Positions 7,958-50,757 of a DNA stretch of 64,000 nucleotides are shown here, piece by piece. The stretch's first letter is position 1. Every line of letters begins with the position of its first letter. The notes below the pieces were generated by a model that did no database searches, was not told the origin of the DNA, and saw only the letters and a list, made by a program, of their open reading frames with translations. The position numbers and the translations under genes are program-made. Origin of the DNA: Paenibacillus sp. FSL H8-0537 (GTDB lineage: Bacteria > Bacillota > Bacilli > Paenibacillales > Paenibacillaceae); the NCBI RefSeq assembly GCF_038051995.1, contig NZ_CP150290.1, positions 58,501-122,500 of the forward strand. The letters run 5' to 3'.

Positions 7958-8056
7958 AAATATAAAAATGTATGAGTTACACGCTTATACATGCTTATAT
8001 TTCACCCGCGAAACGGTAGCTTTGCCGCCAGAGGATGGCGACAGCTGTTACGCTTA
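7958..8056 (+). repeat. Two-hairpin dispersed element, copy 1
   Basis: Hairpin 1 (7958-8002) has arms AAATATAA and TTATATTT with an inner ATGTAT/ATACAT pair. Hairpin 2 (8003-8056) has GCGAAACGG at its 5' arm and a TTACGC end. It starts directly after the terminator T run of the riboswitch and lies in the leader of the binding-protein gene. Confidence 0.85.
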
Positions 8057-8109
8057 GCCCAATCTCTGGTTATTCAGGAGTTGGAGCGTTAAAGACAAGG
8101 GGTGGGACA

Positions 8110-9126
8110 ATGAGACAGTCGTGGAAGGTTTGGCTCTTGGGGTTGCTTGTCGTGTCGATGTTTGTTGTTGTGGGTTGTGGTAGTTCAGGTGGCAAAGCGG
8201 GAGAAGGAGGAGCGGGTGAGCCGATTACAATTGCCCTGAGTCCGTGGCCGGGTTGGTATATGTGGTATGTAGCTGAGGAAAAAGGTTTTTTTGAAAAGCA
8301 CGGAGTCAACGTAAAGCTGGAGTTTTTCCCGGTGTACAGCGACTCGCTGCAAGCTTTGGCAACGGGAAGGGTAGATGCAAACAGCCAGACGCTGAGCGAT
8401 ACGCTCGCTCCTTTTTCAAAGGGAATTCCGCTTAAAGCGGTTCTGGTCAACGATAACTCCTTCGGCGGCGATGCTATTGTCAGCAAACCGGAAATCCAGT
8501 CCATACAGGATTTGAAGGGGAAAACAGTTGCGACGGAGCTTGGTACTGTCGATCATTTGCTGCTGCTGACTGCCTTGGCGCAAAATGGCATGAAGGAAGA
8601 AGATGTGAACTACGTCAATATGACTGTAAATGATGCGGGCCCAGCTTTTATTTCCGGAAAGTCTGATGCTTCTGTTCTATGGGAGCCGTTCCAGACAATT
8701 GCGGTGAAGGAAGGAAAGGGCAAGGTGTTGTTCTCCTCTAAAGATACGCCGGGACTTATACCGGATTTGCTTGTGTTTCGTGAAGAGGTTGTGCAGAAGC
8801 GTTCCGCTGAAGTGCAGAAGGTTGTGGATGCCTGGTTCGATGCGCTTGCGTATTATGAGGCGAATCAGGAAGAGGTGCTGAAGCTGCTGGCGACCAAGGC
8901 GGAGACGACTCCGGAGGATCTCAAGTTGGGGTTTGATGGCATCAAGCTGTTCTCTCAAGCGGATAATCTTCACGCCTTCGAGAAGCGTGATGAATATACC
9001 TCGCTTGAATATACGGCGGGACAGACGGCGGGTTTCTTGCGCGGACTCGATATGGTCGGTGACATTGATGACGTGAGCGGACTGTTCGACGCGCAATTCG
9101 TCAAAAATACATCAGCAGGGAAGTGA
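8110..9126 (+). CDS. ABC transporter substrate-binding lipoprotein (nitrate/taurine type), probable guanidine importer
   Basis: 338-aa extracytoplasmic binding protein of the NrtA/SsuA/TauA superfamily. The ATG at 8110 follows AGGGGTGGG; longer in-frame starts upstream run into the repeat element and are rejected. Residues 1-22 form a lipoprotein signal ending in VVGC, so Cys23 would be lipidated. The mature part has the family pattern IALSPWPGWYMWYVAEEKGF and LKGKTVATELGTVDHLLL. It overlaps the permease gene by one base. The upstream guanidine-I riboswitch makes guanidine or a relative the likely ligand; this is inference from regulation, as the fold alone does not fix the ligand. Confidence 0.88.
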   Translation: MRQSWKVWLLGLLVVSMFVVVGCGSSGGKAGEGGAGEPITIALSPWPGWYMWYVAEEKGFFEKHGVNVKLEFFPVYSDSLQALATGRVDANSQTLSDTLAPFSKGIPLKAVLVNDNSFGGDAIVSKPEIQSIQDLKGKTVATELGTVDHLLLLTALAQNGMKEEDVNYVNMTVNDAGPAFISGKSDASVLWEPFQTIAVKEGKGKVLFSSKDTPGLIPDLLVFREEVVQKRSAEVQKVVDAWFDALAYYEANQEEVLKLLATKAETTPEDLKLGFDGIKLFSQADNLHAFEKRDEYTSLEYTAGQTAGFLRGLDMVGDIDDVSGLFDAQFVKNTSAGK

Positions 9127-9932
9127 TGACGATGGAGGCAGTTCGGCGGCGGAAGCCGCATCGGATACAGATTTTTAAAGATATTGGCTCCCGGGCGTTT
9201 ATGATTACGGCTAGCTGCTCTTTTCTGCTCCTTCTGCTGCTGTGGTCGCTGCTTAGCTATACGGAGGCTGTGAACCCTGTATTTTTGCCGAAGCCGCATG
9301 TCGTGCTTGCGACCTTTATAGAGCTGCTCGGCAGCTCTGATTATTGGAATCATATTGGCGTTAGCTTATTTCGCGTTATGTCAGGCTTCCTGTTGGCATG
9401 TGCGCTAGGCATTCCTATCGGAATATTGGCTGGAACGTTCAAATTCGGCGAAGCGCTAATAGAGCCTCCGATGGAATTTATCCGCTACATGCCAGCGGTT
9501 GCTTTTATTCCGCTTATTATGGTTTGGGCGGGGATTGGCGAGTGGGCCAAGGTATTGCTTATTTTTATCGGCTGTTTCTTCCAGCTCGTGCTGATGGTGG
9601 CTGACAATACGCGAAGGGTGTCGCAGGATTTGCTGCAAGCTTCCTTCACGCTTGGGGCGGGGCGCTGGAAGGCAATCGAGACGGTGCTCATACCGGCGAT
9701 CCAACCGCAATTAATGCATACGATGCGGCTTATTCTCGGCTGGGCGTGGACGTATCTAGTTGTGGCGGAGCTGGTTGCTGTCAACAGCGGGCTTGGATAT
9801 GCCATCATGAAGGCGCAGCGATTTTTGAATACGGAGGAGATTTTTGTAGGTATTTTCGTTATTGGGCTGCTGGGCTTGATCAGCGATCGCATTTTTGCCT
9901 TTTTGAACCGCAGATTGTTCCCTTGGGTATAG
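9126..9932 (+). CDS. ABC transporter permease (nitrate/taurine type), probable guanidine importer
   Basis: 268-aa inner-membrane permease of the SsuC/TauC type with about six hydrophobic segments. The cytoplasmic coupling loop carries the expected pattern ASFTLGAGRWKAIETVLIPA near residues 175-195. The ATG at 9126 shares its A with the stop codon of the binding-protein gene, indicating translational coupling; AGGGAAG lies just upstream. No ATPase follows. The matching ATPase is encoded separately at 19425. Role in guanidine uptake is inferred from the riboswitch ahead of the two-gene unit. Confidence 0.88.
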   Translation: MTMEAVRRRKPHRIQIFKDIGSRAFMITASCSFLLLLLLWSLLSYTEAVNPVFLPKPHVVLATFIELLGSSDYWNHIGVSLFRVMSGFLLACALGIPIGILAGTFKFGEALIEPPMEFIRYMPAVAFIPLIMVWAGIGEWAKVLLIFIGCFFQLVLMVADNTRRVSQDLLQASFTLGAGRWKAIETVLIPAIQPQLMHTMRLILGWAWTYLVVAELVAVNSGLGYAIMKAQRFLNTEEIFVGIFVIGLLGLISDRIFAFLNRRLFPWV

Positions 9933-10256
9933 GGTTTGATGACGGAGGTTCCGTTATTTTAGCTTTTGATCCTATTTCGGGACGTAAGCGGACAGGAGAT
10001 CCGCTATCTTCCTAATAACCTCTTCAAGATGGCTTTTGGCAGCGCATTAGCTGCTCCTGAGTCCGCTGCCTAGCCATAAGCCTTGATTCTGTTGAAATAG
10101 CGGCTGCTGTGTCCGCCAAGTATTTCTTTGTGCAGGGTGTGAACCCCTGAAACGAAGATTGCGATTCCTAGTTGAAAAAAAGAATATCAGTGCCTGCTGT
10201 ATACGAAGCTCGCAGTCCGAGAGGAAGAATTCCTTGAGGCCTGTGGGCTTTTTTTA
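9933..10256. other. Gene-free stretch with palindromes
   Basis: No credible gene is seen. The stretch holds a run of palindromes described separately (9940-10120) and, at its right end, a weak stem with GGGCTTTTTTT near 10245-10255 that may end the transporter transcript. The T run leads straight into repeat copy 2. Confidence 0.5.
9940..10120. repeat. Array of GC-rich palindromes
   Basis: At least four hairpin-forming units lie in series: GACGGA/TCCGTT (9941-9956), AGCGGA/TCCGCT (9987-10005), nested ATGGCT...AGCCAT around GGCAGCG...CGCTGCC (10029-10077), and a looser AGCGG/CCGCC near 10098-10115. The first and second share the GCGGA/TCCGC theme. They do not match the two-hairpin element found elsewhere in the window. 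Confidence 0.55.
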
Positions 10257-10354
10257 AAATATAGGAAAGTATATGATTTTCCCATCCTTTCTCTATATTT
10301 CAACGCGAAACGATAGCTTTGCCGCCAGAGGATGGTTTCAGCCATTTGCGCTTG
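10257..10354 (+). repeat. Two-hairpin dispersed element, copy 2
   Basis: Hairpin 1 (10257-10300) has arms AAATATAG and CTATATTT and belongs to the same subtype as the inverted copy at 25436-25531. Hairpin 2 runs from GCGAAACGATAGC to CCATTTGCGCTTG. It begins right after a run of seven T. Confidence 0.85.
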
Positions 10355-10355
10355 T

Positions 10356-10384
10356 TTGCATATAAATGTAAAAAGTGATATCAT
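10356..10384 (+). promoter_or_regulatory. Candidate promoter of the SPFH gene
   Basis: TTGCAT at 10356-10361 and TATCAT at 10379-10384 are 17 bases apart, directly after repeat copy 2 and about 40 bases before the SPFH start codon. Confidence 0.5.
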
Positions 10385-10422
10385 AAATATATCAAATTAA
10401 TACTAAAGGGGTGTTCTGACAG

Positions 10423-11295
10423 ATGAAAGAGTTCAAAGCTTGGCATGTAAATGGATTTTTGGCATTGCTGGTTGGCGTACTGTCGCTTGTTGGGGGAATC
10501 ATTCTGATTGTGTTTGGCGCATCGGGCGTACAGCCGGACTTCCTTTCGATTATTGCGGGTGGATTGCTGATACTTGTTTTTATTATCGCTTCGTCCTCGC
10601 TGACGATTGTGCAGCCGAATGAAGCGAAGGTCATTACCTTTTTTGGAAAATATATCGGTACGGTAAGAACAGCAGGGCTGTGGATGACGCTTCCGCTGAC
10701 GAACAAGCAGAAGGTATCGCTTAAAGTGCGCAACTTTAACAGCCATACGCTGAAGGTCAATGATGCCGACGGCAATCCGATTGAAATTGGGGCGGTTGTT
10801 GTGTTTAAAGTAACGGACACGTCCCGTGCGAGCTTCGATGTCGACAATTATGAGCGTTTCGTGGAAATTCAAAGCGAGACGGCTGTTCGCCACACGGCGG
10901 CACAGCACCCATATGATACGCATACGGATGAGAACGCGATGTCTCTGAGAGGCAATTCCGAGGAAGTGGCAGAAGAGCTGCTCAAGGAGCTGCAAAGCAG
11001 GCTTGCTGTTGCGGGAGTTGAAGTAATAGAGACGCGGCTGACGCATCTGGCTTACGCCCCGGAAATTGCTAGTGCAATGCTGCAAAGGCAGCAAGCAACA
11101 GCGATTGTGGCAGCTCGCCAGAAAATCGTTGAAGGCGCGGTTGGTATGGTGGATGCGGCATTGAAGCAATTGGAGGATAGTGGAATTGAGCTGGACGTGG
11201 AGCGGCGTGCGGCGATGGTCAACAATCTGATGGTGGCGATCGTATCGGATCGTTCTGCCACGCCGGTCATTAATACCGGGTCTTTGTACACGTAG
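10423..11295 (+). CDS. SPFH/Band 7 membrane protein
   Basis: 290-aa protein with two N-terminal membrane segments (about residues 10-32 and 40-60) followed by an SPFH (stomatin/prohibitin/flotillin/HflK) domain starting at TIVQPNEAKVITFFGKYIGT. A helical tail holds EVIETRLTHLAYAPEIASAM, which is typical of the family's oligomerisation region. The ATG has an AAAGGGGTG site. It is followed 13 bases later by a small Arc-like gene, a pairing seen for this SPFH subfamily. Such proteins organise membrane microdomains or regulate proteases; nothing specific is shown here. It sits between the two riboswitch units but has its own promoter and no riboswitch, so it need not belong to guanidine metabolism. 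Confidence 0.85.
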   Translation: MKEFKAWHVNGFLALLVGVLSLVGGIILIVFGASGVQPDFLSIIAGGLLILVFIIASSSLTIVQPNEAKVITFFGKYIGTVRTAGLWMTLPLTNKQKVSLKVRNFNSHTLKVNDADGNPIEIGAVVVFKVTDTSRASFDVDNYERFVEIQSETAVRHTAAQHPYDTHTDENAMSLRGNSEEVAEELLKELQSRLAVAGVEVIETRLTHLAYAPEIASAMLQRQQATAIVAARQKIVEGAVGMVDAALKQLEDSGIELDVERRAAMVNNLMVAIVSDRSATPVINTGSLYT

Positions 11296-11308
11296 GGAGC
11301 TGTCGATA

Positions 11309-11509
11309 ATGGGAAAAGAAAAGAAAGCTTTTCCGCTCCGACTGAATCCTGACATTCACCGCGCTCTGGAGCAGTGGGCTAATGAGGAATTTCGCAGCGT
11401 CAATGGTCATATTGAGTTTTTGCTGCGCGAAGCGCTTAGTCGTTCGGGCAGGCTGCCGAAGCCGCGGCCAGCCGAGCCTCTGGGAAATGCCGGTGAGCCT
11501 AAGGAATAG
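11309..11509 (+). CDS. Small Arc-like ribbon-helix-helix protein
   Basis: 66-aa protein. KKAFPLRLNPDIHRALEQWA near the N-terminus and the following SVNGHIEFLLREAL match the Arc/MetJ ribbon-helix-helix pattern (a basic, alternating beta strand followed by two helices). The last 18 residues are Pro-rich and probably disordered. It begins 13 bases after the SPFH stop with GGAGCTG upstream and so is probably cotranscribed. It could bind DNA or act as a small partner of the SPFH protein. No toxin gene is adjacent. Confidence 0.7.
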   Translation: MGKEKKAFPLRLNPDIHRALEQWANEEFRSVNGHIEFLLREALSRSGRLPKPRPAEPLGNAGEPKE

Positions 11510-11572
11510 AGAGAAGCAGATAAAGAGCCTGATTATAGGTAAGAAACAAAGCCAAACAGCAGCTGCCGTTCA

Positions 11573-11905
11573 ATGACGATGGAGCTGCTGTTGAGATTTG
11601 GCTACAATGAGGGCGGACAGGTTATTAGGCATGTTTTGTTTGCTGTTGATTTGGTGCAGATGAAGGTCGTTCCTTATGAGAGTGCGGAGATGGGCGAAGT
11701 GTATATGTACACGCCGACTTGGCCTATCGTCGACTACCAGTGGATTGATAATAATCAGTTTTGGGTGGCCTCGGCTGATTTGCAATCATCTGAAGCTGAA
11801 TTTGAAGCTGTTCAAAATTGGTTGGCTTCAAGTGATAGGAATATCAAGAAGGTAACCATTTTGTTGAACCAAGAGGAGTTGTTAGACGCTTACTCGATGC
11901 CTTAG
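11573..11905 (+). CDS. Hypothetical protein
   Basis: 110-aa acidic, soluble protein without signal peptide or membrane segment. I do not recognise the family. It contains ELLLRFGYNEGGQVIRHVLF at the N-terminus and several Tyr/Trp-rich stretches (TPTWPIVDYQWIDNNQFWVA). The ribosome binding site is weak, and a start at 11579 is equally possible. It follows the Arc-like gene by 63 bases and precedes the second guanidine promoter. Even codon use and absence of stops over 333 bases argue that it is real, but the function is unknown. Confidence 0.5.
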   Translation: MTMELLLRFGYNEGGQVIRHVLFAVDLVQMKVVPYESAEMGEVYMYTPTWPIVDYQWIDNNQFWVASADLQSSEAEFEAVQNWLASSDRNIKKVTILLNQEELLDAYSMP

Positions 11906-11950
11906 AGCAGGAATGCTAAGGTGTCTAAAATCGGTGTGTCCTTTATATTA

Positions 11951-11967
11951 TGTTATGTTATCTAACA
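11951..11967. promoter_or_regulatory. TnrA/GlnR-type box upstream of the -35
   Basis: TGTTATGTTATCTAACA fits TGTNAN7TNACA exactly and ends seven bases before the -35 hexamer. This position suits activation under nitrogen limitation. Confidence 0.7.
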
Positions 11968-11973
11968 TTATTG

Positions 11974-12003
11974 TTGACAAATGATATTCAATAGTCATAT
12001 AAT
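11974..12003 (+). promoter_or_regulatory. SigA-type promoter of the guanidine-degradation operon
   Basis: TTGACA at 11974-11979 and TATAAT at 11998-12003, spacing 18, the same layout as the promoters at 7681 and 19271. Confidence 0.75.
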
Positions 12004-12011
12004 CTATTTAA

Positions 12012-12028
12012 CGTTAGGTTATATGACA
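12012..12028. promoter_or_regulatory. Second TnrA/GlnR-type box, downstream of the -10
   Basis: CGTTAGGTTATATGACA matches the consensus except for its first base. It lies just after the -10 hexamer, a position suited to repression. Together with the box at 11951 it brackets the promoter. Confidence 0.55.
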
Positions 12029-12067
12029 AATGAATATAGGTTTCCGTTGCAAAATATACTGGAAACA

Positions 12068-12240
12068 AATCGCTGTCTAGGGTTCCGTTAGCTGCTGATG
12101 GGGTACGCCTCATCTGTTAATAGCTAAGTCTGGTCCGAGAGACGGCATGCAGTCGAATGCGAGTAATGCTGGCGCGAATCGCTGTATAACACGGAAGGAT
12201 AAAAGCCTGGGAGATCAAATCTCCCGGGCTTTTTTTATTT
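12068..12240 (+). promoter_or_regulatory. Guanidine-I (ykkC) riboswitch with terminator, copy 2
   Basis: Contains CTAGGGTTCCG (12077), CTGGTCCGAGAG (12130), ACACGG (12189) and GGATAAAAGCCTGGGAGA (12197). The last block doubles as the terminator arm (AAAGCCTGGGAGAT with ATCTCCCGGGCTTT, T run to 12236). The peripheral helices differ from copy 1 while the core is kept, so the two are diverged functional copies. It precedes the DUF1989 pair, the carboxylase and the allophanate hydrolase. Confidence 0.95.
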
Positions 12241-12268
12241 ATATTTACACGGGGAGGCGAAAGAGGGA

Positions 12269-12997
12269 ATGAGTGAAGAATGGAGCAAAACGATTGAAGC
12301 CGGAGGCAAGTGGTCGGGTGTTATTGGACGGGGGAAGCTTGTTCGTTTAACCGCCCTTGAAGGTGGGGCGAATGTGTCTGCCATGCTGTTCAGCGCTCAA
12401 GATTTGAATGAACGCTACAATATGCCAGATACACTCAAGGCGCAGCATACCTCACATCTAACGAAAGGGAATGTGCTGATGAGCGACAATGGACGTGCGA
12501 TGGTCAGTATTGTAGAGGATGGACTTGGCTGGCATGACCCGCTTGGCGGCTATACAAGCCGCGAGCTGACGGATGAGCGCTATGGCGCGACGACTTATCA
12601 GGCACTTCGAAATGGCTGGCTGCGAAGCGGGCAGGAAAATTTGGCGGTTGAGCTGGTGCGAAGCGGCATGGGTGTCAGGGATTTGATGCCGGTCATCAAC
12701 TGGTTTTCTAAAATCAGCTGCGATGAGCAGGGTGATATGCATTATGCCGAAAATCATTGCCTGGCAGGTGCTAGTGTGACGCTTCGAACAGAAATGGATG
12801 TGCTGCTGGTGCTGTCGAATACGCCTAATCCGCTTGATGCTAGAACGATTTATCCTTCGGTTCCGGTGGGGGTAGAAGTGTTCGCGGCTGAGACAGTAGA
12901 TCGAGAACATGACTATTGTGTAAATTATCGTGCGGAAAACCGCCGTGCGTTCGAAAATACGTGGGAATACAACCTTTTATGGGGAGGCGGATGGTGA
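12269..12997 (+). CDS. cgdA: Carboxyguanidine deiminase subunit, DUF1989 family (first of pair)
   Basis: 242-aa DUF1989 protein, formerly labelled urea amidolyase-associated protein 1. In this family, paired DUF1989 proteins have been shown to form a carboxyguanidine deiminase that makes allophanate and ammonia from carboxyguanidine. Visible family features are the GLGWHDPLGG motif near residue 90 and INWFSKISCDEQGDMHY near 150. The Cys of the partner's HDTIGGSC motif is replaced here (HDPLGGYTS), so this subunit may not carry the full active site. The ATG at 12269 is 29 bases after the riboswitch terminator, with GGGGAGG at 12251. Assignment as the A rather than the B subunit is a guess from size and gene order. 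Confidence 0.85.
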   Translation: MSEEWSKTIEAGGKWSGVIGRGKLVRLTALEGGANVSAMLFSAQDLNERYNMPDTLKAQHTSHLTKGNVLMSDNGRAMVSIVEDGLGWHDPLGGYTSRELTDERYGATTYQALRNGWLRSGQENLAVELVRSGMGVRDLMPVINWFSKISCDEQGDMHYAENHCLAGASVTLRTEMDVLLVLSNTPNPLDARTIYPSVPVGVEVFAAETVDREHDYCVNYRAENRRAFENTWEYNLLWGGGW

Positions 12998-13647
12998 TGG
13001 CAGCATTTAACTTGGTAGAAAGCTCGCGTAAGGCGGCGGAAGCTGTGTACAGTAAAACCATTTTGGCCGGCGATGGCTGGATGCATGATTTGCTGCCTGG
13101 ACAAGTGCTCAGAATTGTCGATCTCGAAGGTAATCAGGCGGCGGATACACTATTTTACGATGCGGATCAGCCGGAAGATCATTATAGCGCCATAGCAACG
13201 ATTGCAGGGCAAGCCAATGTGTATTTAACGGCAGGCTCGGTGCTGCGGGCAGAGTCGGGCAAGCCGCTCGTAACGATCGTTGCCGATACATGCGGACGCC
13301 ATGATACGATTGGCGGCTCCTGCTCTGCACAGAGCAACACGGTGAGATATGCCCATGAAAAACTGCATATGCACAACTGCCGCGATACGTTCATGCTCCA
13401 GCTGGCGAAACGGGAGGCTGGCTATACAAAGCGCGATTTGGCGCCTAATGTGAACTTTTTCATGAATGTGCCAGTAACAGCCGAGGGCGGCTTGCAGTTT
13501 GCGGACGGCGTATCCGCGCCTGGCTACTACGTAGAAATGCAATCGCATGGCAGGGTGACAGTGCTCATCAGCAACTGTCCGCAGTTGAACAATCCTTGCA
13601 ATGCCTATAACCCAACATCTGTGCAGGCACTAATCTGGAACGAATAA
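12997..13647 (+). CDS. cgdB: Carboxyguanidine deiminase subunit, DUF1989 family (second of pair)
   Basis: 216-aa DUF1989 protein, partner of the preceding gene. It keeps a Cys/His-rich core, ADTCGRHDTIGGSCSAQSN near residues 90-110 and HMHNCRDTF near 125, which are candidate metal or catalytic residues. The ATG at 12997 shares its A with the preceding TGA and has GGGGAGG nine bases upstream, so it is preferred to ATG 12991, which is too close to that site. With the first subunit it would deiminate carboxyguanidine to allophanate. The coupled start argues for equimolar synthesis of the two subunits. Confidence 0.86.
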   Translation: MAAFNLVESSRKAAEAVYSKTILAGDGWMHDLLPGQVLRIVDLEGNQAADTLFYDADQPEDHYSAIATIAGQANVYLTAGSVLRAESGKPLVTIVADTCGRHDTIGGSCSAQSNTVRYAHEKLHMHNCRDTFMLQLAKREAGYTKRDLAPNVNFFMNVPVTAEGGLQFADGVSAPGYYVEMQSHGRVTVLISNCPQLNNPCNAYNPTSVQALIWNE

Positions 13648-13670
13648 ATGAATGCGAAGGAGAGGTTGCT

Positions 13671-20740: not shown

Positions 20741-20914
20741 GTGCATAAGAAATTGGGAGCGGATGAATACTATGGTCAGATTCACAGCAAACGCATTGCC
20801 TGGCTTGATCAAGTAAAGAACGTTCCTTCGAGTGGCGGCCTTCGTCATGCATCGGAAAACGACTGCTTCAGCATTCGAGGATTTCCCCTGTTAGCCGTGT
20901 TTTTTCAAATATAA
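20741..20914 (+). CDS. Doubtful 57-aa open frame
   Basis: A GTG-initiated frame starting HKKLGADEYYGQIHSKRIAW and continuing with ordinary amino-acid composition, ending inside the left arm of repeat copy 3. No ribosome binding site is visible and no family is recognised. It may be the remnant of a gene cut off by the repeat, or chance. Confidence 0.2.
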   Translation: MHKKLGADEYYGQIHSKRIAWLDQVKNVPSSGGLRHASENDCFSIRGFPLLAVFFQI

Positions 20915-21003
20915 GACTTTATAAGTTCCTGCTTATAACCCGCTTATATTTCAGCGCAAAACGAGCCTTTGCCGATAAATGACGGCGAGAGCCGTTTACG
21001 CTA
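20907..21003 (+). repeat. Two-hairpin dispersed element, copy 3
   Basis: Hairpin 1 (20907-20951): AAATATAAG and TTTATAAG pair with CTTATAA and CTTATATTT. Hairpin 2 (20952-21003) starts GCGCAAAACGAGCC and ends GCCGTTTACGCT. It follows the T run GTTTTTTC and lies 60 bases before spoVT. Confidence 0.85.
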
Positions 21004-21064
21004 TTAGACAGGCAGATCGTACCCAGTAGACTTAAAATCCTCTAGGAAAGTGGGGCAACATGAA

Positions 21065-24815: not shown

Positions 24816-25424
24816 ATGACAAGAATCGGTTGGATCAGGCATGGCGTCACGCAGTGGAATATCGAGGGGAGAGCGCAGGGCTCTACGGATATTCCGCTGA
24901 ATGAGGAGGGCAAGCGGCAAGCGGCAGTTTTGGCTGAGCGGCTGAGCAAGGAGGAATGGCATCATATTTACTCCAGTGATCTGCAGCGGGCGCTTGTGAC
25001 AGCAGAGACGGTAGCGGCGCGCCTGGGCGGCGGCATGGCGGTCAAGCAGGATGAGCGGCTGCGGGAAATGGGAGGCGGCCTTCTGGAAGGCATGACGGAA
25101 GCGGAGCGTATTCTGAAGTGGGGAGCCGACTGGCGCAAAGTGGATTGGCAGGGTGAAAGCCATGAATCCGTTATAGGCCGCGGTTTCGAGGTGCTGAGGG
25201 AGATTTCTCATAACCATCCGGGTCAAAATATACTTATTGTTAGCCACGGAGCGCTCATCGGCCGCTGCTTGAAGGAGCTTGTGCCGGACGCTTATAAGAA
25301 CGAGCCGCTTCAAAACACGTCCATCTCGACGATTTATGCGAATGCGGCAGGTGGCTGGTCCTGTGAAAAGTTTAATTGTGCGCTGCATTTGAGCGGCGTG
25401 GCTGATGAAGTAGAGGCGAAATGA
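24816..25424 (+). CDS. Histidine phosphatase (phosphoglycerate-mutase-like)
   Basis: 202-aa cytoplasmic enzyme of the histidine phosphatase superfamily. The catalytic RHG lies in TRIGWIRHGVTQWN (His9), the second conserved Arg in YSSDLQRALVTAE near residue 60, the acid in REMGGGLLEGM near 85 and the second His in LIVSHGALIG near 145. The site AAGGAGGGGG precedes the ATG. It sits between rqcP and a DUF817 gene, a place where B. subtilis has no such gene. The substrate cannot be read from sequence; cobalamin, phosphosugar or general phosphatase roles are all possible. Confidence 0.88.
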   Translation: MTRIGWIRHGVTQWNIEGRAQGSTDIPLNEEGKRQAAVLAERLSKEEWHHIYSSDLQRALVTAETVAARLGGGMAVKQDERLREMGGGLLEGMTEAERILKWGADWRKVDWQGESHESVIGRGFEVLREISHNHPGQNILIVSHGALIGRCLKELVPDAYKNEPLQNTSISTIYANAAGGWSCEKFNCALHLSGVADEVEAK

Positions 25425-25435
25425 TTCATTTTCCA

Positions 25436-25531
25436 AGGTGAAACGGCTGTCGCCGTCCTCTGGCGGCGCGCGGCGTTTCAGTCCGAGAAATATAGAGAAA
25501 GGATGGCGGAATCATATACTTTTCTATATTT
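25436..25531 (-). repeat. Two-hairpin dispersed element, copy 4 (inverted)
   Basis: On the minus strand it reads hairpin 1 (AAATATAG...CTATATTT, 25488-25531) and then hairpin 2 (to GCCGTTTCAC). It is the only copy in this orientation. Its hairpin 1 is closest to copy 2. It overlaps the first 31 codons of the DUF817 reading frame. Confidence 0.85.
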
Positions 25532-31454: not shown

Positions 31455-31554
31455 TGCGTATAGCCGTTTATCTCTCTTAAAATGGGCAAAACTGATAGAA
31501 TCAGCTCCTTGTCACTCTAAGTAGGGCGGCATGCTGGTTTGTGGCTGTTTGTGC

Positions 31555-31655
31555 AAATATAAGAATTTATAAGTTTCACACTTATAAATGGGCTTATATT
31601 TCAACGCGAAACGGAAGCTTTGCCGCCAAAGGACGGCTTCAGCCGTTTACGCTTG
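31555..31655 (+). repeat. Two-hairpin dispersed element, copy 5
   Basis: The best-formed copy. Hairpin 1 (31555-31601) pairs AAATATAAG with CTTATATTT and ATTTATAAG with CTTATAAAT. Hairpin 2 (31602-31655) pairs GCG/CGC, AAACGG/CCGTTT and AAGC/GCTT. It lies 20 bases before the yabS start. Confidence 0.9.
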
Positions 31656-37559: not shown

Positions 37560-37576
37560 GCCAGTTGTTTATGGAG

Positions 37577-37620
37577 ACAGCTATTTTCTCAGTAGTGACC
37601 GAGAAAATAGCTGTTTTTTA
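37577..37620 (+). terminator. Intrinsic terminator after ftsH
   Basis: ACAGCTATTTTCTC pairs perfectly with GAGAAAATAGCTGT, followed by TTTTT. Confidence 0.9.
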
Positions 37621-37677
37621 TTTCATCGCGAAACAGTAGCTTTGCCGCCATAGGTCGGCGTCAGCCGTTTACGCTTG
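37621..37677 (+). repeat. Two-hairpin element, copy 6 (hairpin 2 only)
   Basis: TTTCATCGCGAAACAG to GTCAGCCGTTTACGC matches hairpin 2 of the family. Hairpin 1 is missing and its place is taken by the ftsH terminator. Confidence 0.8.
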
Positions 37678-42792: not shown

Positions 42793-42845
42793 ACTTCCCA
42801 TGGCTATCACGTAAGTGATGATTCATCCATGGGAAGTTTTTTTGT
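42793..42845 (+). terminator. Intrinsic terminator of the nucleoside transporter operon
   Basis: ACTTCCCATGG pairs with CCATGGGAAGT, with an inner TCAC/GTGA pairing, then TTTTTTT. Confidence 0.9.
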
Positions 42846-42888
42846 TTTCTAACCCTTTACACAAGGTTAGTCACAGAAAATCCACGAT

Positions 42889-42938
42889 TGTGGATAACTT
42901 GTGGATAACCATGTGCGTAAACGCTGCATTTATACACA
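42889..42938. promoter_or_regulatory. Cluster of three DnaA boxes
   Basis: TGTGGATAA (reverse of TTATCCACA) occurs at 42889-42897 and again at 42900-42908, one helical turn apart. TTATACACA follows at 42930-42938 in the opposite direction. All fit TTATNCACA. No AT-rich unwinding region or dnaA/dnaN gene is near. Confidence 0.65.
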
Positions 42939-43015
42939 ATAGCCGCCAATGATGGAAAGTTTAGCTGTGGCAGGTGCTATTTTCAAAGGGAATTCACACT
43001 TTTGTCATAAACGCA

Positions 43016-43044
43016 TTGACAGCATGATCTGCCTGGAGTAAATT
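43016..43044 (+). promoter_or_regulatory. Promoter of nadABC
   Basis: TTGACA at 43016-43021 and TAAATT at 43039-43044, spacing 17, leaving a leader of about 140 bases. Confidence 0.55.
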
Positions 43045-43095
43045 AAACCTTATCAAATGAATTTACCGTAAAGGTCAAATGAAAGGCGAACGACT

Positions 43096-43183
43096 TTTTA
43101 GGTTTGTGCATCAATTCACAAAGTCGGTAGTAGCCATATCTGGAATGGGCAATCAGCTTGCCCTTCCCTCATAAGAGGAGAGG
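43096..43183 (+). promoter_or_regulatory. Structured nadA leader
   Basis: Three potential stems lie between promoter and start: CGACT with TTGTG pairing to CACAAAGTCG (43090-43126), GGGCAA-TCAGC-TTGCCC (43147-43163), and CCTC-ATAA-GAGG (about 43167-43178), which covers the GAGGAGAGG ribosome binding site. No known riboswitch class is recognised. Confidence 0.4.
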
Positions 43184-43190
43184 ATTAACT

Positions 43191-44129: not shown

Positions 44130-44167
44130 GAGCAGCATGCGCTACTCCTATGCCTGGAGGCGCAGAA

Positions 44168-45784
44168 ATGATTCCCAGATACCTTGTAGACATAAAGCTG
44201 GACGAACTGCCGGTAATCGAGAAGGATGTTATTGTGATTGGGGCCGGCATTGCCGGTCTTTTTACCGCACTTCGGGCCAGTGATCGGCATTCCGTGCTGA
44301 TGATTACGAAGAAGTCGCTGCTCGACAGCAACACCCGCTATGCGCAAGGCGGCATTGCCGCGGTCATATCGGAGGACGATTCACCAGCTTACCACAGCGA
44401 GGACACGCTAATTGCGGGAGCGGGGTTGTGCTCGGAGGATGCGGTCAATGTGCTCGTGCATGAGGGGCCGGAAGGTGTGAATCAGCTCATTGAAATGGGC
44501 ACACAGTTCGATTTGGAAAATGGCGAGTTTGCGCTGACGAAGGAAGGCGCTCACAGCCAGCGTCGTATTTTGCATGCGAATGGGGATGCGACGGGCTACG
44601 AAATTGTACGAGCCTTATCGGAGAAAGCGTTATCCAAGCCGGGTATTGAAGTATGGGACGACCACTTTGTCATCGATTTGGTTACCAATGATGGAGAATG
44701 TGTGGGCGCTGTTGTGCAAAAGCCGGACGGCTCGCGTCTGCTTGTACGCGGCAAGGCGACCATTCTATGCTCGGGCGGCGCAGGCCAGCTCTACCGTTAT
44801 ACGACGAATCCTGAGGTGGCCACAGGCGATGGGATCGCTATGGCTTACCGGGCAGGAGCTTTTATACAGGATGTAGAGTTTGTCCAGTTTCATCCGACCT
44901 CCCTATGCTATCCTGGAGCGCCACGGTTTCTGATTTCAGAGGCTGTACGCGGCGAAGGAGCCGTCCTCCGCAATACGCGAGGCGAGCGTTTTATGGAGCG
45001 CTATCACCATCAGCTGGAGCTGGCGCCGCGTGACGTAGTGGCCCGCGCAATTATTAGCGAGATGGAAGCTACGAAATCAACTTTTGTTTATTTGGATGTG
45101 ACGCATGAGTCGCCGGATATGGTGAAGCATCGTTTTCCGAATATTTATGAATTTTGCCTGCAATACGGTTTGGATTTGACGACAGATTGGATTCCGGTCG
45201 CCCCTGCTGCACATTATATGATGGGCGGCGTTAAAACCGATCTCGATGGAGAAACCAATATTAAAAGGCTGTTCGCCTGCGGCGAGGTTTCCTCGACAGG
45301 CGTTCATGGAGCGAATCGGTTGGCCAGCAATTCGCTTTCGGAAGCGGTCGTTTTCGGCAAGCGTATCGTCGAGGCGATTGATAAACTTGCAGAGCATGCA
45401 GAGATTCAGCCTATAATAGAGAGCAGCGTACCGCGCAGCAGTGTGCCGATTCAGGCAGTGGTGGAGCGGAGATTGAAGCTGCAAAAAGTGATGGTCAGGT
45501 ATGCGGGCTTGCAGCGCGATGCCAAGGGCCTCGAGAAGGGGCTGGAGGAGCTGCGGCGCCAGTTGACTATTTTTCAAGCGATGCTGACCAAGCGGGAAGA
45601 GTTTGAATTTGCCAATATGCTGACATGCGCCCTGCTGACGGCGGAATCCGCTTTGCAGCGGGAGGAGAGCCGCGGCGCGCATTACCGTGAGGACTTCCCG
45701 GAGCGCAATGATCAAGTATGGCGCAAGCATACCGTAATGCACCGTGTATACGGGAGGACAGAGGAGCGGTTAACCAATGTTTGA
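44168..45784 (+). CDS. nadB: L-aspartate oxidase
   Basis: 538-aa flavoprotein that oxidises aspartate to iminoaspartate for NadA. The FAD-binding GAGIAG is at residues 25-30, followed by SNTRYAQGGIAAVISEDDSP, and the active-site region has VQFHPTSLCYPGAPRFLISE and EAVRGEGAVLRN. A C-terminal helical domain of the succinate-dehydrogenase type follows. The ATG at 44168 with TGGAGGCG upstream is preferred to an ATG six codons earlier. It overlaps nadC by eight bases. Confidence 0.96.
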   Translation: MIPRYLVDIKLDELPVIEKDVIVIGAGIAGLFTALRASDRHSVLMITKKSLLDSNTRYAQGGIAAVISEDDSPAYHSEDTLIAGAGLCSEDAVNVLVHEGPEGVNQLIEMGTQFDLENGEFALTKEGAHSQRRILHANGDATGYEIVRALSEKALSKPGIEVWDDHFVIDLVTNDGECVGAVVQKPDGSRLLVRGKATILCSGGAGQLYRYTTNPEVATGDGIAMAYRAGAFIQDVEFVQFHPTSLCYPGAPRFLISEAVRGEGAVLRNTRGERFMERYHHQLELAPRDVVARAIISEMEATKSTFVYLDVTHESPDMVKHRFPNIYEFCLQYGLDLTTDWIPVAPAAHYMMGGVKTDLDGETNIKRLFACGEVSSTGVHGANRLASNSLSEAVVFGKRIVEAIDKLAEHAEIQPIIESSVPRSSVPIQAVVERRLKLQKVMVRYAGLQRDAKGLEKGLEELRRQLTIFQAMLTKREEFEFANMLTCALLTAESALQREESRGAHYREDFPERNDQVWRKHTVMHRVYGRTEERLTNV

Positions 45785-46661
45785 GACAACGCTGGATGGC
45801 TATAATGAAGCGCTGCGCGCGCAAATACGCGGCTGGCTCGCTGAAGATATCGGAAGCGGCGATGTAACGACGGCTATGACTATTCCGCGTGGAGCGCAGG
45901 CAAAGGCCGTCATTCATGTGAAGGAAAATGGGCGGATTGCGGGCATTCCAATTGCGCGCCTTGTGTTTGAAATCGTTGACCAATCGCTGGTCTTCACGGC
46001 AAAGGTCGAGGATGGACAGTATGTAGAAAAAGGCACTGTACTCGCTGAAGTAGAAGGCAGCATCCATAGTCTGCTTACAGGGGAGCGTCTAGCGCTTAAT
46101 TTAATGCAGCGGATGTCCGGCGTGGCGACGAAGACTAGTGAGTTTGTAGCGGCGCTGCAAGGCCTGCCGGTCCGACTGGTCGACACTCGCAAAACGACGC
46201 CAGGCCATCGTCTGCTTGAAAAATATGCCGTTCGCGTAGGCGGCGGCTCGAATCACCGCTTTGGCTTGTATGATGCCGTTATGATCAAGGATAATCATAT
46301 TAAGGGCGCAGGCGGTATTCGGGAAGCAGTGGAAGCAGCTCGAGCGGGTATTCCCCATACGATGAAGATCGAGGTGGAGACGGAGTCCTTGGAGCAAGTC
46401 GATGAGGCGATTGCATGCGGCGCTGATATTATTATGCTGGACAATATGCCACATGAGATGATGAAAGCCGCAGTAAAGCAAATCAAGCAGCACGCACCAC
46501 ATGTTATTGTAGAAGCCTCCGGCAATGTGCGGGTTGATACCATACACGGTATAGCCGCTTGCGGTGTCGATGTCATTTCGGTAGGAGGCCTCACCTATTC
46601 CTTTCAATCACTCGATATTAGTCTCGACCTGTTTGCGAAGAAGGGAGGGACCATGTCTTGA
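45777..46661 (+). CDS. nadC: Nicotinate-nucleotide pyrophosphorylase (quinolinate phosphoribosyltransferase)
   Basis: 294-aa enzyme that makes nicotinate mononucleotide from quinolinate and PRPP. Conserved motifs are [12 protein letters not shown] at the N-terminus, [20 protein letters not shown] near residue 140 and KDNHI near 172. The C-terminal barrel has [19 protein letters not shown] and MLDNM stretches. It overlaps both nadB (8 bases) and coaX (4 bases), so the de novo NAD genes are transcribed into coaX. Confidence 0.96.
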
Positions 46662-47428
46662 TTCTCGTCATTGACGTCGGAAATACGAATATAGTCTTGG
46701 GCATTTATCAAGGCAAGGAGCTGCTTCATCACTGGAGGCTCAGCACGAATCGTTCCGCTACAGTTGATGAATATGGCATCAACTTTCATCATTTGTTTCA
46801 TTTTGCCGGCATGCGTCTGGAGCAGATGGAGGGTGTCATTATTTCATCAGTCGTTCCGCCGCTCATGCGGACGTTGGAGCAGCTGTGCATGAAGTATTTG
46901 CGCAAGACTCCTTTTATCGTTGGTCCAGGCGTGAAAACCGGACTTAATATCCGGTATGAAAATCCCCGCGAGGTCGGCGCTGACCGCATCGTGAATTCGG
47001 TGGCGGGCATCGTCAAATATGGCAGTCCGCTTATTGTCGTCGATTTCGGAACGGCAACGACGTTTGATTACATTGATGCCGCTGGCAGCTATTTGGGCGG
47101 CGCTATTGTGCCGGGCATTGCAATATCGACAGAGGCGCTTTATCAGCGGGCGGCGAAGCTGCCGCGCATTGAGCTGGTGAAGCCGCCAAGCGTCATCGGC
47201 CGCAATCCGGTCACTTCCATGCAGGCGGGTATTATATATGGCTATGCAGGACAAGTGGACGGTATCGTGCGCAGAATCCGCAAGGAATTTAAAGTCTCGC
47301 CGCGTGTTATCGCGACGGGCGGCTTGGCTGAGTTAATTAGCTCAGAATCGGAAACGATAGATGAGGTTGATCCGCTTCTGACATTAGAAGGTTTGCGTAT
47401 TATATATGAACGGAATCAGGAGGGATAG
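46658..47428 (+). CDS. coaX: Type III pantothenate kinase
   Basis: 256-aa ASKHA-fold kinase that phosphorylates pantothenate, the first step of CoA synthesis. The P-loop-like region is [14 protein letters not shown], with [12 protein letters not shown] and [14 protein letters not shown] following. The TTG start overlaps the nadC stop (TTGA). Read-through from nadABC links NAD and CoA cofactor synthesis in this operon, an arrangement not found in B. subtilis. Confidence 0.95.
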
Positions 47429-47431
47429 ACG

Positions 47432-48331
47432 ATGGAGCAAAGGAAAGATTTTTTGGTGCGTGGCACGGCATGGGAAGGCAAAATTCGTGTTTTTGCAGCC
47501 CGTACGACGCAATTGGTCGATGAGCTGCAGCGCCGGCACGGCACTCTGCCGACTGCAACTGCAGCACTTGGCAGAACGGCAACGGCTGGAGCTATTATGG
47601 GCGCCATGCTGAAGGGCGATGAAAAGCTGACGATTCAAGTGAAGGGCGAAGGCCCAATGGGACAAATTGTCGTCGATGCAAATGCTCATGGAGAAGTGCG
47701 AGGCTACACGGACAATCCACTCGTTCTGCTTCCAAGCAATGCGCAGGGAAAGCTTGATGTTGCAGGTGCCGTAGGCCATAGCGGCTATCTTCATATTACT
47801 AAGGATCTTGGGTTGAAAGAGCCTTACCGCGGCAGCGTTCCAATTGTTTCCGGCGAGCTTGGCGAAGACTTCACCTATTATTTTGCTGTATCGGAGCAGA
47901 CGCCTTCCGCAGTTGGACTGGGCGTGCTGGTTGATGAAGACGGTCGCGTCATTCATGCGGGCGGCTTTATCGTACAGCTGATGCCAGGACTTACGGATGC
48001 GGAAATTACTAAGCTGGAGAAAGCGCTCAGTGCGATGCCTCCGGTCACAGCCTTGCTTGATCAAGGGGAGACGCCAGAAGGGCTGCTTAAATGGGTCGTC
48101 GGTGATGATGTTGTCATTCATGAGTCGCTGGACTTGCGTTTTCAATGCAAATGCTCGCGCGATCGCGTAGAGCAGACCTTGATCAGCATGGGTGAATCGG
48201 AATTGCAACAAACGATTGAAGAAGAAGGTAAAGCAGAGGTCGTCTGTCACTTCTGTAATGAAGCATACCAGTTTAACCGCGTAGAGCTGGAGCAATTGCT
48301 CGAACAAGCCAAACCGAAGCCGATCCATTAA
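47432..48331 (+). CDS. hslO: Redox-regulated chaperone Hsp33
   Basis: 299-aa cytoplasmic holdase activated by oxidation. The redox-switch zinc site is complete: Cys239 and Cys241 in CKC and Cys272 and Cys275 in CHFC. The N-terminal core contains LGRTATAGAIMGAMLKGDEK and GYTDNP. It begins three bases after coaX with CAGGAGGG as site, in the conserved coaX-hslO-yacD order. Confidence 0.96.
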   Translation: MEQRKDFLVRGTAWEGKIRVFAARTTQLVDELQRRHGTLPTATAALGRTATAGAIMGAMLKGDEKLTIQVKGEGPMGQIVVDANAHGEVRGYTDNPLVLLPSNAQGKLDVAGAVGHSGYLHITKDLGLKEPYRGSVPIVSGELGEDFTYYFAVSEQTPSAVGLGVLVDEDGRVIHAGGFIVQLMPGLTDAEITKLEKALSAMPPVTALLDQGETPEGLLKWVVGDDVVIHESLDLRFQCKCSRDRVEQTLISMGESELQQTIEEEGKAEVVCHFCNEAYQFNRVELEQLLEQAKPKPIH

Positions 48332-48349
48332 TATGGAGGCTACCGGGCA

Positions 48350-49321
48350 ATGAATAAAATCGGTGTAGTGAGGACGATCGTCGTCATTCAGGCGTTATGT
48401 ATGATCGTGCTAAGTGTAGTTGTTGTAGTGAGATTGTCGCCTTTTTCTGAAGGCATGCCGGACCATGAGCCAGATTCGGGAACACGTACTGAAACAGGCA
48501 ATGAGGTTGTACCAGGCAGCTTGGATAATGATAAAATTGTTGCCATAATTGGCGATTACAGCATCAGGGAAAGCGAACTGATGAATGCGCTTAGCGAGCA
48601 ATATGGCCAAGCTACCCTCAAGCTGATGATGATTCACAGCGCCATTGACCAGGAGGCTGCCTCGCAGCAGCTTGAAGTGACCGCTGAGGAGCAGCAGAGA
48701 GCTGTTGAGGAGCAGGCAGAGGGATATGATAGCGAAGAGGATTTTTACCGCATCATGGATCAGCAGCTGGGCATGTCCAAAGAGGAAGTTTTGAAGGATA
48801 CGAAGTACAGGCTGTTGACTGAAAAAATAGCGATCCAAAAAGTGGATGTGCCTGATGCTGAGGTTGAACGCTACATTGCGGATCATGAGGAGCAATACGG
48901 CGACAAGCTGCAATATCGCTTATCCTGGATTGTGACGGCAAATATGGAAGAGGCGAACCGCGTGCTGGATAAGCTCTCTGAGGGAGCAGACTTTGCGCAA
49001 GCAGCAGCTAAATATTCGATAGATGCTTTTACGGCAGATGCTGGCGGTGATTTAGGCCTTATTGATGCCAATGACCCGTTTCATGAGCGGGCGATTCTTT
49101 CGGCGGCAAGCAAGCTGGATACGGGAGAGATCGCTGGCCCGATATCGATTGCCGAAGGGTATGCCATCATTCGTTTGATGGAGCGCCACACAACGGATAA
49201 GCCACAGGGACAGCAGCTGTATGAGCTGGTCCGCAAAGAGCTGGCATTATCACAGGCTCCTTCCCTAAGCCAAATTGAGCAGCAGCTATTGGAGAAATAT
49301 GACGCTGTCACCTTTCCATAA
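48350..49321 (+). CDS. yacD: PpiC-type peptidyl-prolyl isomerase, membrane anchored (YacD-like)
   Basis: 323-aa protein with an N-terminal membrane anchor (TIVVIQALCMIVLSVVVVVR) and an extracytoplasmic PrsA/SurA-like body. The parvulin domain lies at about 195-285 (LSWIVTANMEEANRVLDKLS, GGDLGLIDANDPF and AGPISIAEGYAIIRL). It probably assists folding of exported proteins. There is no lipobox. The gene is placed as yacD in B. subtilis, between hslO and cysK. A terminator follows. Confidence 0.9.
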   Translation: MNKIGVVRTIVVIQALCMIVLSVVVVVRLSPFSEGMPDHEPDSGTRTETGNEVVPGSLDNDKIVAIIGDYSIRESELMNALSEQYGQATLKLMMIHSAIDQEAASQQLEVTAEEQQRAVEEQAEGYDSEEDFYRIMDQQLGMSKEEVLKDTKYRLLTEKIAIQKVDVPDAEVERYIADHEEQYGDKLQYRLSWIVTANMEEANRVLDKLSEGADFAQAAAKYSIDAFTADAGGDLGLIDANDPFHERAILSAASKLDTGEIAGPISIAEGYAIIRLMERHTTDKPQGQQLYELVRKELALSQAPSLSQIEQQLLEKYDAVTFP

Positions 49322-49380
49322 ATATAAGAAATTCTAGGTTTGTTTATAAGCTTCCATTATATTGGAGCATCATATAGTCA

Positions 49381-49425
49381 TGTTCGCCAGACGATTGGAA
49401 AATGGGCGAACAATCCTTCTTTTTC
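49381..49425 (+). terminator. Intrinsic terminator after the coaX-hslO-yacD group
   Basis: TGTTCGCC pairs with GGGCGAACA, followed by ATCCTTCTTTTT. Repeat copy 7 begins two bases after the T run. Confidence 0.75.
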
Positions 49426-49426
49426 A

Positions 49427-49530
49427 AAATGTAAGCATTTATAAGGCTTCCACTTATATCAGGCTTATATTTCAGCGCAAATTGATGCTTTATCGGTCAG
49501 GGATGGCGTTAGCCAGCCGTATTCGCATGA
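49427..49530 (+). repeat. Two-hairpin dispersed element, copy 7
   Basis: Hairpin 1 (49427-49472) has arms AAATGTAAG and CTTATATTT and inner TTATAAG/CTTATA. Hairpin 2 (49473-49530) is the most diverged in the window (GCGCAAATTGATGC to CCGTATTCGC). Confidence 0.8.
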
Positions 49531-49544
49531 AGGAAATGAAGGTA

Positions 49545-49574
49545 TTGACAACGAATACAACTCATTGATAAGAT
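49545..49574 (+). promoter_or_regulatory. cysK promoter with possible CymR-like sequence
   Basis: TTGACA at 49545 and TAAGAT at 49569, spacing 18. Between here and the start codon lies GAATTAGTCGGAATAA, which resembles the right half of CymR operators of Bacillus cysK. The match is by eye only. Confidence 0.5.
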
Positions 49575-49628
49575 GGAATTAGTTTAAAAACCAACTGAAT
49601 TAGTCGGAATAAGGAGGAAGTATGACAC

Positions 49629-50567
49629 ATGGCAAAAATCGTGCAAAGCATTACTGATCTAATTGGTGATACACCGCTAGTTCGCTTGAATCGTCTTGTT
49701 CCTGAGGACAGCGCTGAAATCTATGTAAAGCTTGAATATCAAAATCCAGGTGCGAGCGTAAAAGACCGTATCGCAATCAGCATGATCGAAGTAGCTGAAC
49801 AGGAAGGCATCATCAAGCCAGGCGATACAATTGTTGAGCCTACGAGCGGCAACACGGGTATCGGTCTTGCCTTGGTAGCAGCAGCTAAAGGCTATAAAGC
49901 GATTCTTGTTATGCCTGAGACGATGAGTATTGAGCGCCGCAACTTGCTTCGTGCTTATGGCGCAGAAGTGGTTCTGACGCCGGGTTCGGAAGGCATGAAC
50001 GGAGCTGTTCGCAAAGCCGAGGAATTGGCGAAAGAAAACCCGTCCTATTTTATCCCGCAGCAGTTTAATAACCAAGCCAATGTAAAAATCCATCGCGAGA
50101 CAACGGGTCCGGAAATCGTTGAGGCGATCAACTCCCTGGACGGCAAGCTGGATGCATTCGTAGCGGGTATTGGTACTGGCGGTACGATTACGGGTACTGG
50201 CGAAGTGCTGAAAAAGAACTTTAAAGATATTAAAATTTACGCGGTTGAGCCTGCGGCTTCCCCACTGCTTTCGGGTGGACAGCCTGGACCTCACAAAATC
50301 CAAGGGATTGGCGCTAACTTTGTGCCGACGATTTTGGATCGCGAAATTTATGACGAAGTCATTACGGTTGAAAATGATGATGCATTCGACTACGCACGCC
50401 GTGCTGCGAAAGAAGAAGGCATCTTGTGCGGAATTTCCTCCGGTGCTGCGATCTATGCTGCTTTGAAAGTGGCGAAGGAGCTTGGCAAAGGCAAGCGCGT
50501 TATCGCGGTTGTTCCAAGTAATGGTGAGCGTTACCTCAGTACGCCGCTGTTCAACTTCGAGAACTAA
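49629..50567 (+). CDS. cysK: Cysteine synthase A (O-acetylserine sulfhydrylase)
   Basis: 312-aa PLP enzyme that makes cysteine from O-acetylserine and sulfide. The PLP Lys is Lys45 in [12 protein letters not shown], the substrate loop is [10 protein letters not shown], the phosphate cradle GTGGTITG, and SSGAA lies near the end. Site AAGGAGG is 11 bases before the ATG. It is monocistronic, between two repeat copies. In B. subtilis it is repressed by the CymR-CysK complex. Confidence 0.97.
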
Positions 50568-50655
50568 CACTTATGTCCAATCGGGGCCGTGCCTTTAGTA
50601 GGATCGGTATACCGTTTGACTGGCCTTCCATTCATTTGAGTGGGGGGCTTTTTTC

Positions 50656-50757
50656 AATTATAAGCCGTTTATAAGTTTCACCCTTATAAATCGCTTATCA
50701 TTCACCCTCGAAACGGTAGCTTTGCCGCCAGAGGACGGCTGCAGCCGTTTACGCTTG
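50656..50757 (+). repeat. Two-hairpin dispersed element, copy 8
   Basis: Hairpin 1 (50656-50702): AATTATAAG and TTTATAAG against CTTATAAA and CTTATCATT. Hairpin 2 (50703-50757): CGAAACGGTAGC to GCCGTTTACGC. It directly follows GGGGGGCTTTTTTC, the likely end of the cysK transcript. Confidence 0.85.

Follow-up and report, generated by a model that had tools for sequence, protein, structure and literature searches.

Two-hairpin elements in the window

The window analysed here is a stretch of 64,000 nucleotides of Paenibacillus sp. FSL H8-0537, positions 58,501 to 122,500 of a single contig of 7,005,912 bases, and its intergenic regions carry copies of a short element made of two consecutive hairpins. 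In 58 copies from this genome the unit runs from AAATATA to CTTG over 96–102 bp, has no gene inside and places an AT-rich hairpin (H1) before a second hairpin (H2). Type A H1 starts with AAATATAAG and has the inner arms ATTTATAAG/CTTATAAAT and CTTATATTT, while type B reads AAATATAGGAAAGGATATG...CATCCTTTCTCTATATTT. These are the two main types; a third, type C, reads AATTCTAAG...CTTAGAATT and has a different H2 ending, GTCGTTTTTGCTTG. H2 consists of the outer arms AAACGG/CCGTTT with a core between them and CTTG behind, and a variant with TGAAACG/CGTTTCA occurs. The last four bases are CTTG in 112 of 138 copies. Terminal inverted repeats are absent: the AAATATA and CTTG ends are not complementary, and each end has a hairpin of its own.

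A first-pass annotation of this DNA had listed copies at 7958, 10257, 20907, 25436 (inverted), 31555, 49427 and 50656, and all of them were found, among eight copies in the window, by cmsearch with a covariance model (R2) built from 58 copies with a hand-set structure of 33 pairs. R2 replaced a first model, R1, whose automatic fold gave only 7 pairs. Five of the eight copies (7958, 20907, 50656, 31555 as L001 and 10257 as L051) are training rows of R2 and so match it by construction; those at 25434, 37569 and 49427 lie outside the training set. For comparison we used two relatives, G032 (about 94% identical to our genome) and G013 (90–93%), together with loci of P. algorifonticola.

On the plus strand, complete copies with a type A H1 lie at 7958..8056 (inner arms ATGTAT/ATACAT, followed by H2; 88.2 bits), 20907..21004 (70.5 bits; also in G032 and G013) and 50656..50757 (93.5 bits), and a complete copy with type B H1 and H2 lies at 10257..10354 (92.3 bits). 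The copies at 7958 and 10257 also stand in G013, the only genome with which these two sites could be compared, G032 not being comparable there. A complete type B copy on the minus strand, 25434..25531 (55.4 bits), is shared with G032 and absent from G013, and a diverged complete copy, 49427..49529 on the plus strand (31.3 bits, E 2.5e-4), is present in both relatives. The best-scoring copy is the type A copy at 31555..31655 (plus strand, 117.3 bits). It folds as two hairpins, with H1 at 31555–31601 (outer arms 31555–31563 and 31593–31601), H2 at 31606–31652 and CTTG at 31652–31655.

Two places hold incomplete copies, both on the plus strand. The one at 37620..37677, directly 3′ of a terminator T-run, keeps the end of H1, H2 and the right end. 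The R2 match there (37569–37677, 74.5 bits) fits the terminator hairpin in place of the missing H1. The site had been described as hairpin 2 only, and H1 is indeed missing in our genome and in G032; since G013 and P. algorifonticola (L087) have H1 there, it was probably lost by deletion. A trace had also been claimed at 57268. A decayed remnant at 57260..57350 (limits approximate) does keep a left end after a terminator T-run, and G013 has a longer remnant there, but R2 gave no match to it at E ≤ 1. Two further minus-strand matches of R2 (7906–8002, E 0.00099; 31495–31601, E 0.0076) are H1 palindromes read in reverse.

Copy number and distribution

The search of the whole genome for further copies that the first-pass annotation had proposed gave at least 150 R2 matches, all at E ≤ 2.1e-5. 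The fetched loci held 153 matches and 151 distinct copies, a set that excludes the 17 weakest, unfetched matches. With blastn, at least 51 matches were found with a type A query and at least 53 with a type B query, 40 candidates being scored for each. A pattern for the right end, AGCCGTTTNNNCTTG, occurs 189 times in our genome, 185 times in G013 and 81 times in G032, against 1, 4 and 0 for the reversed control. The copy number of the genome lies at about 150 to 190. A half-match at 6,282,251 was considered as the right end of a longer autonomous element and rejected, being a complete type B copy.

Among sampled relatives, R2 matches were present in 35 of 60 genomes: 32 of 37 of the genus, counting ours, and 3 of another 23 from the order. 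G002, G005, G024, G031 and G034 gave no match. A class-wide draw gave matches in 6 of 151 genomes, all of the same family and again including ours. The filters were stricter in both cases and miss weak matches; in the genomes sampled, matches are confined to one order. The exact H2 pattern gave 80 loci listed from 100 stretches, all Paenibacillus-named. A genome of another genus (G076) has 16 matches; T-rich sequence stands to their left, most start with AAATATAAG, the ends resemble CTTG and H2 is diverged. One copy had no match among plasmids and phages, nor the exact H2 pattern among viral contigs, where distant relatives may still exist.

The first-pass annotation knew of no named family that fits, and our searches agree. 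At the gathering score Rfam has no match at the window copies; at E ≤ 1 the sole match to one copy is mir-5885, which falls on the H1 palindrome and stays below its threshold of 64 bits (20.5 bits, E 0.017). The open-access literature on Paenibacillus miniature inverted-repeat transposable elements (MITEs), repeats, repetitive extragenic palindromes (REPs) and hairpins, as far as its accessible parts go, contained no description of the family, although an earlier one may exist.

Structure and covariation

Folding of eight reference copies gave z-scores of −3.8 to −5.6 for four and −0.8 to −1.7 for the other four; the weak group includes a mis-framed piece (25397–25499) and the H2-only copy at 37621. 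Covariation was counted in alignments (A5–A8) fitted to the model. In the 58 copies of our own genome, 90.6% of cells pair and 100 cells are double-changed, against 50 in shuffles; 12 pairs have double changes against 9 in shuffles, a figure that 24 of 500 shuffles reached. These changes are mostly a single split between types A and B. In the 67 distinct copies from other species, double-changed cells number 154, where shuffles give 50 (0 of 500 as high), and 20 of 33 pairs have double changes against 9. As many as 16 of the 18 H1 pairs carry them. The H1 arms therefore show compensatory change, as had been claimed from the window copies. These loci (52 of 80 used, P. algorifonticola left out) were picked by the exact H2 pattern, so that H2 was held fixed in the test.

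H2 was examined separately in 53 aligned pieces of 61 extracted, 16 of them from other genera (14 from G076). Its outer arms have 13 double-changed cells against 7.3 in shuffles (2 of 500 as high), with 2 pairs against 2, and an alternative hairpin, ACGGC/GCCGT, has 8 against 1.5 (0 of 500), with 1 pair against 1.1.

Presence and absence between related genomes

Five sites hold a copy in one genome and none in a relative, which bears out the spread of a non-autonomous element suggested by the first-pass annotation. At 54978..54979 of the window, our genome and G013 have an empty site reading TTATTCA^TAGATT, where G032 carries a 101-bp copy of mixed type, with a type A H1 and a type C H2. The site at 25434 is filled in our genome and G032 and empty in G013. 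At contig position 137,361 our genome is filled and G032 is empty (TTTCTTA^TCCAAG). After 50757, where our genome reads CTTG^ATG, P. algorifonticola has an extra type B copy behind CTTG. At L018 our genome has a second copy, absent in P. algorifonticola (L098), which reads TTTTTA^GCTGG. The annotation had also proposed a comparison for target duplications; there is none at any of these five sites. The extra copy after 50757 is indeed preceded and followed by CTTG, which, however, is the terminus of the element itself. The insertion at 54978 stands before a TAG stop; if translation ran on in that frame, the product would gain five residues and end at a stop codon supplied by the element.

Further differences concern what stands at a shared site. 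The site at 50656 has type A in our genome, type C in G032 and a remnant in G013; that at 31555 has type A in our genome, a B-like copy in G013 and a deletion remnant in G032. Across these orthologues (L167, L168, G013/G032), types thus differ at the same place, perhaps through tandem insertion and then recombination between H2 copies. Altogether, 6 of 10 compared window sites differ between genomes (25434, 31555, 37621, 50656, 54978 and 57268). We consider it almost certain that the family is mobile.

Target sites and arrays

Target statistics were taken from the 138 copies with regular left ends, 13 of the 151 having irregular ones. In the 105 non-tandem copies, the left flank has T in 79–93% at positions −7 to −3 and A in 51% at −1. 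The right flank has no marked preference, its first base being T in 36%. A T-run of at least 4 lies within the last 12 left-flank bases of 74 of the 105 copies, compared with 5.1% of random 12-mers. The target is one-sided: T-rich and degenerate just 5′ of the element, with nothing conserved 3′ of it.

The remaining 33 of 138 copies stand directly behind another copy, in head-to-tail arrays with the junction CTTG|AAATATAGG and units of 97–101 bases. The CTTG end of the element doubles as a target, and this gives rise to the arrays. Four-unit arrays are found at L011 1202–1594 (5.99 Mb of our genome) and L282 601–992 (5.01 Mb).

Some of the T-runs belong to terminators. Of 73 testable T4+ runs at elements, 34 have a stem (dG −8 or lower) ending at them, and of 120 control runs 24 do; for T6+ runs the figures are 25 of 48 at elements and 10 of 44 among controls. 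Part of this excess reflects intergenic position, because control runs were taken anywhere in the window and not only between genes. The 105 non-tandem copies divide into 34 with such a stem, 39 without one and 32 that lack a T4+ run; by eye, neither 54978 nor 137,361 has an evident terminator. Terminators are over-represented as targets and are not the sole one; as the whole target rule, they were rejected on the count of 34 in 105.

Orientation relative to the replication fork

What we take to be dnaA, dnaN, recF and gyrB begin at base 1 of the contig. The origin was placed there, and the GC skew of the fetched loci flips sign near 3.5 Mb. Of the 151 copies, 117 point with the fork, as do 14 of the 17 weakest matches outside that set, with strands as printed. 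When only the first copy of each array is counted, 90 of 118 are fork-directed (binomial p 6e-9; 0 of 20,000 simulations), whereas flanking T5+ runs are balanced (330 with the fork, 327 against). The lagging-strand template therefore carries the element's top strand, with the T-tract, in roughly three of four array-first copies.

The strands of neighbouring genes, taken as longest-open-frame guesses, were available for 120 of the 151 copies. Elements with and against the fork number 41 and 7 where both genes run with it, 9 and 2 where both run against it, 26 and 4 where genes converge on the element and 19 and 12 where they diverge from it. These counts indicate that orientation follows the fork. 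Gene direction was rejected as its cause, with 9 of 11 copies staying fork-directed between two against-fork genes.

Four features were absent from the first-pass annotation: the T-rich target, the arrays of head-to-tail units, the orientation by the fork and type C.

Probable insertion of single-stranded DNA

The element has the properties of a non-autonomous mobile element in the broad sense: it is short and gene-free, has many copies and is present or absent at orthologous sites. Its one-sided T-rich target, the lack of duplication, the self-targeting arrays and the fork orientation argue for insertion of a single strand, and we therefore regard it as probably a non-autonomous mobile family of about 96–102 bp that inserts as single-stranded DNA, the coupling of single-strand insertion to the fork being likely as well. 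We infer that insertion probably takes place into DNA left single-stranded at forks, in a logic resembling that of IS200/IS605 insertion sequences; that the chemistry is specifically of the Y1 type is a good deal more doubtful.

In such a scheme, H1 and H2 would form where the lagging-strand template is single-stranded at the fork, and would be read by an enzyme acting in trans. This enzyme would cut on the left 3′ of a T-rich or CTTG motif and on the right after CTTG. The excised or copied strand would then be joined to a new T-rich site and made double-stranded by replication. The pairing of H1 and H2 would be kept because copies that lose it stop moving, not from a host need for each copy. 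Tentatively, we picture a parasitic single-stranded DNA element with the T-rich stretch and its own tail as addresses, whose fork-coupled insertion might be carried out by an enzyme outside the Y1, Y2 and reverse transcriptase groups, perhaps a host protein. If fork coupling is true, foreign DNA in these bacteria enters preferentially at T-rich stretches of the lagging-strand template.

Many bacterial genomes are full of small hairpin repeats, and in several cases, such as the CGTC REPs and bcr1, it is not known which enzyme moves them. In the present family the ends, target, strand bias, arrays and presence or absence can all be read across related genomes, so that the missing enzyme can be sought. 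The nearest in kind is bcr1, the Bacillus cereus group repeat (PMC6542083, PMC3446304). It belongs to another host group, and its TTTAT repeats have no counterpart in the present family, whose degenerate T-rich stretch flanks the left end alone, has A as its last base in about half of the copies and is not repeated on the right. A MITE of a DDE transposon differs in two respects, as there is no target site duplication and no inverted repeat joins the termini.

Several observations weigh against single-strand, fork-coupled insertion as we have drawn it. H1 is flush with the left end and leaves no evident guide tetranucleotide 5′ of its foot, and the pairing support for H2 is modest, with two mutually exclusive folds that both fit. 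Presence and absence fit insertion or exact excision alike, except at 54978, where the empty form is common to two of three genomes. Some sites have 1–3 deviating bases next to the left junction, the site at 137,361 has one ambiguous base, and the L018/L098 site is less tidy, with about 16 differing bases right of the junction. What differs at 31555, 37621 and 50656 comes down to ragged deletions or switches of type, not clean events. The search for the moving enzyme adds to these points. Among the nine genomes with at least 65 R2 matches each (ours, G003, G010, G011, G013, G022, G026, G032 and G035), Y1_Tnp is absent from six, being present in ours, G003 and G035; G032 lacks it, yet holds a copy that ours and G013 do not have. 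Y2_Tnp is also absent from six (ours, G013, G032, G022, G026 and G035) and present in G003, G010 and G011. No transposase-like gene recurs beside copies, by eye, in one representative of each of 19 clusters.

RVT_1 is absent from three of the nine genomes (G013, G022 and G026); the other six have a match, interrupted in G032. None of Y1_Tnp, Y2_Tnp and RVT_1 is thus present in G013 (one contig), G022 and G026, and the obvious enzyme families are not supplied in every high-copy genome. Perhaps the enzyme was active until recently and has since been lost, perhaps it is of another family, or perhaps it is a protein of the host. Our own genome has a single RVT_1 match, to a protein of 470 aa that contains a reverse transcriptase domain and a YSDD box (L065 1189–2601, minus strand, 6.92 Mb). 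In G010, ten RVT_1 and seven Y2_Tnp matches of identical score suggest recent bursts of reverse transcriptase-bearing and IS91-like elements.

Alternative explanations

Gene-free derivatives of IS200/IS605 are known as PATEs (palindrome-associated transposable elements), and the family could be PATE-like, moved by a Y1 TnpA either resident or since lost. We find this rather unlikely, even if it shares much with the evidence: a hairpin at each end, no target duplication, insertion 3′ of a short motif, here a degenerate one, insertion and excision on the lagging-strand template (used by IS608 and ISDra2) and a final right-end tetranucleotide (PMC6006769). Our genome does have one uninterrupted and one interrupted IS605-like tnpA. 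These lie in IS605-like elements with tnpA and a tnpB-like frame, L062 at 2.76 Mb and L063 at 6.07 Mb, the latter with the interrupted gene. However, Y1_Tnp occurs in only 8 of 51 genomes of the genus, ours included, and is missing from most of the high-copy genomes. Of 27 Y1 loci, some of which end at contig ends, only L063 (E 5.8e-4) and L199 (E 0.62, chance-like) match R2, and L062 does not; the match in L063 is a separate type C copy about 650 bp upstream of tnpA. No guide tetranucleotide was identified, H1 being flush with the end. Measured by the fixed short motif of IS200/IS605 targets, the target here gives a mixed picture, one-sided and T-rich but degenerate.

Helitrons and IS91 elements make no target duplication, have a 3′ hairpin near a CT end and form arrays, all of which the element resembles. 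Against them stand the absence of Y2_Tnp from our genome, G013 and G032 and the first right-flank base, which is T in little more than a third of the copies.

The element might also be a satellite, dependent on group IIC introns or on some other reverse transcriptase, that enters the lagging-strand template behind terminators through reverse splicing or target-primed reverse transcription. We judge this improbable. The insertion sites of group IIC introns lie immediately behind rho-independent terminators and on the lagging-strand template (PMC8919778). The excess of terminator-like stems before the element's T4+ and T6+ runs agrees with such a preference, but only about a third of non-tandem copies pass the stem test, and copies also sit at plain T-rich sites and at the element's own end. 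The element is 100 bp long and has no reverse transcriptase; RVT_1 is absent or interrupted in the four genomes named above. The group II intron ribozyme core has no Rfam match in the window, nor in one copy at E ≤ 1, and the ends of group II introns are unlike those of the element.

More improbable still is a functional RNA element, such as a regulator in untranslated regions or a processing site, kept for the host. The two-hairpin fold, the compensatory change in H1 and the intergenic position of the window copies would suit it. The variation at 6 of 10 window sites argues against a host function at each site, and orientation tracks the fork and not the neighbouring genes.

We give very little weight to REPs or REPINs of a REP-associated tyrosine transposase (RAYT). 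Like REPs, the element is an abundant, small, intergenic palindromic repeat, and CGTC is present in H2, inside a paired arm of the other strand; CGTC REPs, too, apparently lack a dedicated transposase (PMC3733652). Nevertheless, it has two unlike hairpins in fixed order over about 100 bp, arranged in direct, head-to-tail arrays; by eye, no unpaired GT[AG]G or CGTC foot was noticed in the copies, and no RAYT gene flanked by units was seen in the loci read. The lack of Y1_Tnp in six of the nine high-copy genomes also means that these have no RAYT by Pfam.

Finally, spread solely by homologous recombination or slippage from old sites is barely credible: the type switches at 50656 and 31555 and the arrays do suggest recombination between neighbours, a likely secondary process, but such spread does not account for the filling of a new site, as seen at 54978 in G032.

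Neighbouring features

Guanidine-I riboswitches (RF00442) were found at 7778–7927 (70.7 bits) and 12066–12215 (72.9 bits) of the window, and the element copy at 7958 comes after the terminator behind the first of them.

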